A stretch of 64,000 nucleotides of DNA from the NCBI RefSeq assembly GCF_029227915.1, contig NC_079881.1:23661501-23725500 (forward strand), read 5' to 3'. Both the position numbers and the translations under genes were made by a program. Positions 23,401-24,443 of this stretch are shown piece after piece. The stretch comes from Hydractinia symbiolongicarpus. Lineage: Eukaryota; Cnidaria; Hydrozoa; Anthoathecata; Hydractiniidae. Every line of letters begins with the position of its first letter. Position 1 is the first letter of the stretch. The notes beneath the pieces were generated by a model. The model saw only the letters and a program-made list of their open reading frames with translations. It ran no database searches and had not been told where the DNA came from.

Positions 23401-23483
23401 TCCAATGTGGAGAGCAATTGTGAGTGCATATCATATTAACAGGATACCATTACAAAGTTGCAGGATAATCGCGAAATCCCTTT

Positions 23484-23566
23484 GCCTCGGCAGCCCAGGG
23501 ACTCGAACCCGGGATCGTCGCATCAGATGCACCGCGGGCTCTTATCCACTGAGCCACGTCGTCGGC
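23484..23566 (-). promoter_or_regulatory. tRNA-like domain with Pol III A and B boxes, unit 1
   Basis: Minus-strand A box TGGCTCAGTGG (23546-23556) and B box GGTTCGAGTCC (23499-23509) both match the type 2 Pol III consensus and lie about 37 nt apart. The D arm pairs (GCTC with GAGC) and the T arm pairs with one mismatch. No normal seven-bp acceptor stem forms; an extended outer pairing CCTTT-TGCC with GGCAAAGG is possible instead. It is therefore a tRNA-derived promoter or tRNA mimic and not a canonical tRNA gene. Copies recur at +285 and +570 bp, plus a partial one in unit 4. Confidence 0.75.
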
Positions 23567-23577
23567 AAAAGGATTCG

Positions 23578-23633
23578 TGAGAATCCAGACAACTTTGGTA
23601 TTTCGGCTAACAAGCCTTCGTCAGCGGATACCA
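23578..23633 (-). ncRNA. hammerhead-like ribozyme, unit 1
   Basis: Minus-strand core: CTGACGA (23618-23624), stem II GGCT-TGTT-AGCC, GAAA (about 23601-23604), a short stem III, and GTC (23588-23590) as the cleavage triplet. Stem I pairs TATCCG upstream with TGGATT downstream (G-U, C-G, C-G, U-A, A-U). All conserved hammerhead core positions are present. One extra A sits between CTGACGA and stem II, which also occurs in the PLE copies here and could affect activity. Stem III is short (A-U, U-G, A-U). Identical copies lie 285 and 570 bp further on. Confidence 0.7.
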
Positions 23634-23862
23634 GAGCCAGTATTGAGCACTGCAGGAACTCTGGGGCAGCTCGAGCTATATATATTCCAATGTGGAGAGC
23701 AATTGTGAGTGCATATCATATTAACAGGATACCATTACAAAGTTGCAGGATAATCGCGAAATCCCTTTGCCTCGGCAGCCCAGGGACTCGAACCCGGGAT
23801 CGTCGCATCAGATGCACCGCGGGCTCTTATCCACTGAGCCACGTCGTCGGCAAAAGGATTCG

Positions 23863-23918
23863 TGAGAATCCAGACAACTTTGGTATTTCGGCTAACAAGC
23901 CTTCGTCAGCGGATACCA
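23863..23918 (-). ncRNA. hammerhead-like ribozyme, unit 2
   Basis: Identical to the unit 1 motif, shifted by 285 bp; cleavage triplet at 23873-23875. Processing at this site and at the unit 1 site would release a 285-nt RNA. Confidence 0.7.
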
Positions 23919-24147
23919 GAGCCAGTATTGAGCACTGCAGGAACTCTGGGGCAGCTCGAGCTATATATATTCCAATGTGGAGAGCAATTGTGAGTGCATA
24001 TCATATTAACAGGATACCATTACAAAGTTGCAGGATAATCGCGAAATCCCTTTGCCTCGGCAGCCCAGGGACTCGAACCCGGGATCGTCGCATCAGATGC
24101 ACCGCGGGCTCTTATCCACTGAGCCACGTCGTCGGCAAAAGGATTCG

Positions 24148-24203
24148 TGAGAATCCAGACAACTTTGGTATTTCGGCTAACAAGCCTTCGTCAGCGGATA
24201 CCA
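24148..24203 (-). ncRNA. hammerhead-like ribozyme, unit 3
   Basis: Identical to the unit 1 motif, shifted by 570 bp; cleavage triplet at 24158-24160. The fourth, truncated unit lacks the ribozyme, so three sites and two complete monomers between sites are present. Confidence 0.7.
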
Positions 24204-24288
24204 GAGCCAGTATTGAGCACTGCAGGAACTCTGGGGCAGCTCGAGCTATATATATTCCAATGTGGAGAGCAATTGTGAGTGCATATCA

Positions 24289-24443
24289 TATTAACAGGAT
24301 ACCATTACAAAGTTGCAGGATAATCGCGAAATCCCTTTGCCTCGGCAGCCCAGGGACTCGAACTCGGGATCGGGAGTCCCTGGACTGCCGAGGCAAAGGG
24401 ATTTCGCGATTATCCTGCAACTTTGTAATGGTATCCTGTTAAT
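24289..24443. repeat. foldback at the end of the retrozyme-like array
   Basis: The segment from about 24289 to 24360 (from ATTAACAGGATACC to CAGGGACTCG) is repeated in reverse complement from about 24372 to 24442 with two or so mismatches, separated by only about 12 bp. Transcribed or single-stranded, it would form a hairpin with arms of about 70 bp. Such a structure fits snap-back priming during reverse transcription or a replication template switch. Confidence 0.85.

Follow-up and report, generated by a model that had tools for sequence, protein, structure and literature searches.

The 64-kb window analysed here (the whole stretch of 64,000 nucleotides from Hydractinia symbiolongicarpus) contains, on its minus strand, a tandem array of three 285-bp units at 23392–24246, each combining a tRNA-like head with a hammerhead core. 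About 240 bp from the array lies a 6.2-kb Penelope-like element (PLE) whose 5′ terminus is inverted. The PLE, the inverted terminus of the array, the (TA)n target and a TTTT within each unit were absent from an initial annotation of the locus, which had described the array as the source of a self-cleaving circular RNA. The features are collected in Table 1; unit coordinates run along the minus strand, with position 1 at 23676 for unit 1.

Table 1 Features of the array, the PLE and their flanks (window coordinates, or unit positions where so marked)
Feature	Position	Strand	Details
Unit 1	23392–23676	−	285 bp, 3′-most on the minus strand; 0 differences from units 2 and 3
Unit 2	23677–23961	−	identical to units 1 and 3
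Unit 3	23962–24246	−	identical to units 1 and 2
Partial fourth unit, positions 160–285 only	24247–24372	−	1 mismatch in 126 nt, 99.2%
Inverted copy of unit positions 173–244	24374–24445	+	72 nt, 98.6%; meets (TA)n at GTTAATAT
Leader	unit 1–52	−	
Hammerhead core	unit 53–76	−	
Hammerhead, unit 1	23583–23629, also 23868–23914, 24153–24199	−	stem I, CUGACGA, stem II GGCU/AGCC, GAAA, weak stem III, GUC
Hairpin GGATTC-TCAC-GAATCC	23571–23586 (unit 91–106)	−	directly after the predicted cut; predicted folds
TTTT, predicted Pol III terminator	23567–23570 (unit 107–110), also 23852–23855, 24137–24140	−	
tRNA-like head	23487–23564 (unit 113–190), also +285, +570	−	A and B boxes; relaxed ARAGORN cloverleaf
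Tail, bounded by the junction points of the two array ends	23401–23432	−	32 nt
TATATATAT	unit 277–285	−	
(TA)n abutting the array 3′ end	23237–23400		
(TA)n between array and PLE	24442–24681		pure to 24610; imperfect AT stretch beyond, closing with a brief run of TA beside the PLE
PLE	24682–30840	−	pseudo-LTRs, RT and GIY-YIG frames, inverted 5′ terminus
3′ pseudo-LTR	24673–25352	−	680 bp, 99.56% to 28979–29658; core 24761–24784; tail to about 24677
RT (WWRYIDDIF) and GIY-YIG frame	26037–27953	−	638 aa
N-terminal PLE frame	27940–28980	−	346 aa, other reading frame; 50% to P0010 residues 1–345
5′ pseudo-LTR	28979–29658	−	hammerhead core 29067–29090
Inverted copy of the PLE 3′ part	29657–30840	+	ends CTTTCTTTTATATAT at (TA)n; core 30779–30802
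(TA)n abutting the PLE outer end	30840–30987		

Architecture of the array and its neighbour

The three full units show no pairwise differences, and TRF assigns the array a copy number of 3.4. The partial fourth unit is 5′-truncated just before the B box, lacks the ribozyme and folds back into its own inverted copy. Rfam matches below the gathering threshold at about 24318–24414, mostly to miRNA models, were discarded as artefacts of this long inverted-repeat hairpin. All three internal unit junctions bear the same TATATATAT and the full units do not differ, which is easier to reconcile with copying from a single template, multimeric or circular, than with repeated insertion; a recent episode of unequal exchange could still account for the identity of the units. 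No further copies of the 285-bp unit are present within the 64-kb window. Because both flanks of the array are (TA)n, any target-site duplication would be hidden. Metazoan non-LTR retrozymes are characterized by tandem units of 150–450 bp, a type I hammerhead core and a GC content below 50%: the array comprises three units of 285 bp and a partial one, the units carry the type I core, and their GC content is a borderline 50.5%, above the limit.

Two further properties of the units were recorded. A near-inverted repeat, CGAATCCTTTTGCC / GGCAAAGGGATTTCG, flanks the tRNA-like head, and predicted folds put the head on a long stem. On the plus strand, opposite the promoter strand, one frame remains open through the whole array (23261–24442, 393 aa stop to stop), since 285 is a multiple of 3; it is probably incidental. 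Elsewhere in the window, long arrays of a 373-bp satellite occupy 1–21589 (with two spots at 286-bp spacing), 105-bp satellite arrays lie at 51050–58007 (about 45 copies at 51797–56516, with more diverged 102–103-bp relatives behind), and diverged repeats based on TGTCCACCAAATGCTGCATTTTTG lie at 40842–44027, with similar words near 47800–48110 beside a (TA)n tract.

The PLE encodes both an RT and a GIY-YIG domain. Its coding sequence is split between two frames, of 346 and 638 aa, instead of forming a single intact open reading frame. These frames overlap by 14 nt (27940–27953, minus strand), marking a frame break in this copy, and the relative P0010 (986 aa) unites the N-terminal and RT/GIY-YIG parts in a single protein. 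The 638-aa frame matches RVT_1 (2.2e-06) and GIY-YIG (0.0017), both slightly below the Pfam curated cut-offs; in the relatives that were scanned, GIY-YIG lies above its cut-off in four of four and RVT_1 in three of four. The same frame is 64% to P0013 over residues 340–977, aligning end to end with the RT–GIY-YIG part. A protein search returned 2,792 relatives at E up to 0.001 among 7,996 scored, of which the 120 listed all lacked a name, and there was no match among solved structures. Viral contigs contained no exact match to the 24-nt hammerhead core. A peptide pattern from the RT frame matched 2 stretches in viral contigs and 16 in genome contigs, none of them a relative. The pseudo-LTRs carry the hammerhead, with a weak stem I of their own (at best four pairs after AUU; P 0.16–0.32, no better than chance). 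The inverted terminal copy matches one pseudo-LTR over 643 bp at 99.69%, and the high identity of the PLE repeats suggests a young insertion.

Sequence links between the unit and the PLE

The three units and the three PLE repeats have in common a 24-nt hammerhead core, which differs between them solely at N7. The CTGANGA and GAAA letters are kept in all six copies, as are the 13 nt between the two motifs. In the window, CTGATGA-N5-30-GAAA occurs three times, always in the PLE, and CTGACGA-N5-30-GAAA four times, three of these in the units and one, unrelated, at 58904. Shuffled sequences reach three occurrences of the CTGATGA pattern in 11 of 100 cases and four of the CTGACGA pattern in none of 100; by count alone, the CTGATGA pattern is not rare. 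We had considered reading the N7 change as selection for the ribozyme and toned this down, as an alternative hairpin tolerates the change too (C–G or U–G). By blastn, the unit and the PLE show no similarity outside a 26-nt match at the core.

Both elements have (TA)n at both of their ends. The window holds four pure (TA)n tracts of at least 40 bp, three of which flank the array or the PLE; the fourth (48121–48276) has no visible PLE beside it. The 5′ terminus of the array, like that of the PLE, is formed by an inverted copy of sequence from the element's own 3′ part. The junctions with (TA)n read CATTGGA (unit) and CATTTTT (PLE) at one end, and GTTAATAT (unit) and CTTTTATATAT (PLE) at the inverted end. 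The spacing of the two junction points is 32 nt for the unit (positions 244 and 276) and 36 nt for the PLE, where the count extends through the T run. They lie 38 and 74 nt downstream of the predicted cut in the PLE, and 155 and 187 nt downstream in the unit, where the tRNA head sits between ribozyme and tail; the greater distance is what placement of the head at that position would produce. The anole PLE is reported to have two internal start sites bounding a 30–40-bp tail, to cut and extend both strands and to prefer AT-rich DNA (PMC11167929, in excerpt). By analogy, the ends of the array and of the PLE fit this two-start-site scheme. Microhomology to (TA)n restricts where junctions can be placed, so that the agreement in position is supportive rather than proof.

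We had at first regarded the tails of the two elements as clearly homologous, an idea that was cut back after the satellite and peak-rank scores. In a scan of 12,351 windows, from which the array and three satellite stretches were left out, a query with the unit tail including its TA end ranked the two PLE tails first and second among the peaks (scores 37 and 35; next 30). When the TA end is left off, the PLE tails rank second and seventh (29 and 25; top 30), and satellite windows excluded from the scan score 33. Along the PLE alone, the best match of the unit tail is the PLE tail (29, with at most 23 elsewhere). Shuffle P values are 0.02 with the TA end and 0.06 without it, and homology of the two tails is thus suggestive only. 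The satellite copies that align with the unit tail at 33, above the PLE tails, lie at 18461–20780 on the plus strand and belong to the 373-bp family; this similarity may be chance or distant kinship.

Hammerhead fold and Pol III transcript layout

Within each unit the core reads CTGACGA-AGGCTTGTTAGCC-GAAA (at 23601, 23886 and 24171, minus strand). It is accompanied by GTC and then a stem I of five contiguous pairs, one of which is G–U, in agreement with what had been annotated. Against shuffled flanks, a five-pair stem I with GUC has a P value of 0.03–0.04; alone, the five-pair stem I is weak evidence. The cut is predicted after GUC at unit position 89, which in unit 1 is between 23588 and 23587. 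Stem III consists of three pairs, one of them U–G, and predicted folds show the hairpin directly after the cut in competition with stem I. When stems I and II are imposed on a 59-nt piece, its active fold lies 4.4 kcal/mol above the best fold; with the A–U pair of stem III imposed as well, the gaps are 7.6, 12.0, 18.3 and 16.5 kcal/mol for pieces of 48, 59, 81 and 110 nt, all of these being secondary-structure energies that take no account of tertiary or loop contacts. For the PLE core the gap is 0.0 (53 nt) or 0.8 kcal/mol (61 nt), and for the anole PLE ribozyme, computed likewise, 3.2 kcal/mol. In the best predicted fold of the 53-nt PLE piece, stems I and II both form, together with three extra pairs through core letters. 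As the predicted active fold of the unit lies 4.4–18.3 kcal/mol above the best fold, cleavage of the unit without a helper is doubtful. The anole PLE ribozyme is reported, in excerpts of PMC11167929, to cleave only with its protein present. A circle of the unit is predicted to be 67% paired; metazoan retrozyme RNA is described as highly self-paired, above 70% (PMC4918200, in excerpt). Rfam gave no match at the gathering threshold anywhere in the window, and in 23300–25200 and 23392–23676 neither hammerhead nor tRNA families appeared at E values up to 10.

The head carries an A box, TGGCTCAGTGG, at unit 121–131 (23546–23556 in unit 1) and a B box, GGTTCGAGTCC, at unit 168–178 (23499–23509 in unit 1), both on the minus strand, as in the Pol III promoters of tRNA-derived SINEs. 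Full-consensus A and B pairs occur three times on the minus strand of the window and never on the plus strand, and none was found in 200 random 64-kb sequences drawn from a first-order model of the unit. The annotated tRNA-like promoter in every unit is thereby borne out, and with it the description of the array as retrozyme-like tandem units that combine a Pol III-type promoter with a hammerhead core. ARAGORN reports no tRNA in the window at its default threshold and, at a relaxed threshold, a degenerate cloverleaf at unit 113–190. Since neither default ARAGORN nor Rfam finds a tRNA, the head is, judged from its sequence, of the SINE type and not a tRNA gene.

The sole TTTT on the transcribed strand of the unit lies between the ribozyme and the A box. 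Pol III starts about 10–20 nt before the A box. Transcription should thus begin near unit position 111 and end at the TTTT one unit further on. The predicted product is a permuted RNA of about 285 nt that opens with the tRNA head, has the PLE-like tail in its interior and closes with a single ribozyme. Downstream of two of the three array promoters lies another unit, complete with ribozyme and TTTT; the third runs into (TA)n. On such a transcript, cleavage at 89/90 would be expected only to trim a 21-nt trailer that includes the U run. Circles need two ribozymes per RNA, and would therefore require read-through of the four-T signal or another polymerase. The initial annotation had proposed self-cleavage of transcripts into 285-nt monomers, followed by circularization; given the TTTT at unit 107–110 and the unfavourable active fold, this is unsupported as stated.

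Candidate mode of copying and relation to known elements

The explanation that we favour, at a probability of roughly 60%, is that the 285-bp unit represents a SINE of the retrozyme kind: a non-autonomous retrotransposon with a tRNA head, copied by a PLE of the nearby kind. The shared core, the (TA)n, the inverted 5′ termini and the junction points 32–36 nt apart argue for it. Against it, AT microhomology alone might place the junctions, the tail similarity does not stand out once the TA end is removed, and the junctions lie farther from the predicted cut in the unit than in the PLE. The shared core may have arisen by convergence, since hammerheads of the PLE type are common; the N7 change suits the alternative hairpin as well, stem I of the PLE does not exceed chance, and this PLE copy has a frame break. 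The case for PLE copying is built on one array and one PLE.

Three other explanations were weighed. Of these, the one that fares best, although we regard it as unlikely, is a classical metazoan retrozyme, in which multimers self-cleave to 285-nt monomers that form circles and are copied by a LINE or any other RT, the adjacency of the PLE being a (TA)n coincidence. The size, tandem form and type I core of the units do match metazoan retrozymes, GTC is present with its five-pair stem I, and two elements may share one (TA)n by chance; the TTTT within each unit, the unfavourable active fold and the features common to the array and the PLE (core and inverted termini) speak against this origin. Rather less likely still is a tRNA-derived satellite or SINE that gained its core by recombination with a PLE pseudo-LTR and grew by unequal exchange or slippage, with neither PLE copying nor ribozyme function. 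Satellites are abundant in the window, the active fold is weak and the blastn similarity is confined to the core match, all of which would suit such an origin, but it is at odds with the (TA)n ends, with the inverted 5′ terminus on one side and with the lack of other unit copies in the window. Finally, it is improbable that conservation of the six cores reflects some other RNA structure, for example the GCUGACGA/UUGUUAGC hairpin, which the PLE protein might bind, with the hammerhead likeness ancestral or incidental: this hairpin is the predicted fold of the unit core (−7.6 kcal/mol; −2.8 kcal/mol for the PLE core) and the N7 change preserves its pair, but stems I and II form in the best fold of the 53-nt PLE piece (with the three extra core pairs), CTGANGA and GAAA are fixed in all six copies, and hammerheads of PLEs are already established (PMC11167929, in excerpt).

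If the unit is indeed a SINE copied by a PLE, Pol III would start in the tRNA head and stop at the TTTT after the next ribozyme, yielding the permuted transcript. The ribozyme, perhaps with help from the PLE protein, would then trim the 3′ trailer; in a variant of this step, read-through RNAs bearing two ribozymes would release 285-nt monomers, which a tRNA ligase could close. The PLE protein would nick both strands of (TA)n, and reverse transcription would begin inside the RNA, at the AT-rich tail. Copying of a multimer or circle would produce the tandem, and second-strand priming the inverted 5′ end. Because the RT of PLEs initiates internally, a permuted transcript would be usable as a template. 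A narrower proposal, which we put forward tentatively and rate at somewhat below even chances, is that the SINE is built as a permuted unit for the Penelope RT: its terminator abuts the next promoter, each transcript would be exactly one unit with a 3′ PLE-type ribozyme and an internal PLE start site, and internal initiation by the PLE would regenerate the tandem.

On the question of which enzyme moves animal retrozymes, the locus offers a concrete pair with a shared core, (TA)n and matching junction spacing. If the pairing holds, it would be, as far as our searches show, the first in which a SINE and a PLE are connected through a common ribozyme core, target and start sites. The literature searched, whose coverage mostly excludes subscription papers, does not report sequence common to a PLE and a tRNA–hammerhead element that would link the two, and its lone match to the stem II letters concerns, by title and abstract, another subject. 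PLEs have been put forward by Cervera and de la Peña as strong candidates to mobilize retrozymes, because both carry hammerheads, occur as tandem copies and occur together (PMC7229834, PMC7761336, in excerpts). Excerpts of PMC2770079, PMC8490949, PMC6962438, PMC6309819 and PMC10886601 were also drawn on.

Like the metazoan non-LTR retrozymes described by Cervera and de la Peña in 2020 (PMC7229834, in excerpt), the array has short tandem units, of about 170–400 nt in that description, and a type I hammerhead. The unit departs from them in having a promoter and a PLE-type core, and its GC content is 50.5%, against values below 50% in that group. A 2020 review, in the part available, states that plant and metazoan retrozymes seem promoterless and that the metazoan ones have no conserved motif pointing to a partner element. 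The locus described here calls into question whether multimer self-cleavage should be the default view of retrozymes that possess a Pol III promoter and terminator of their own. The PLE here has sequence counterparts of the features described in part for Poseidon of Anolis carolinensis, namely pseudo-LTRs, a small hammerhead, a two-start tail and an AT-rich target. Unlike PLEs such as Poseidon, the 285-bp unit lacks RT coding and has a tRNA promoter between ribozyme and tail.

The tRNA promoter had been annotated as the unusual part of the unit, and unusual it is, but it has a precedent in schistosome Sm-alpha. Sm-alpha and Sj-alpha are described as SINE-like and hammerhead-bearing, and a full tRNA-Gln has been noted in schistosome repeats (PMC4918200, in excerpt). 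Compared by description, they resemble the unit in joining a tRNA-type sequence, reported as tRNA-Gln derived, to a type I hammerhead at a similar size (335 bp in the W36.2 member). The unit differs from the partial descriptions of Sm-alpha and Sj-alpha in sharing its core with a neighbouring PLE, in its (TA)n target and in its inverted PLE-like terminus. The combination of tRNA and hammerhead is thus known from Sm-alpha, and what is new here is the local link to a candidate mobilizer together with the one-unit transcript layout.
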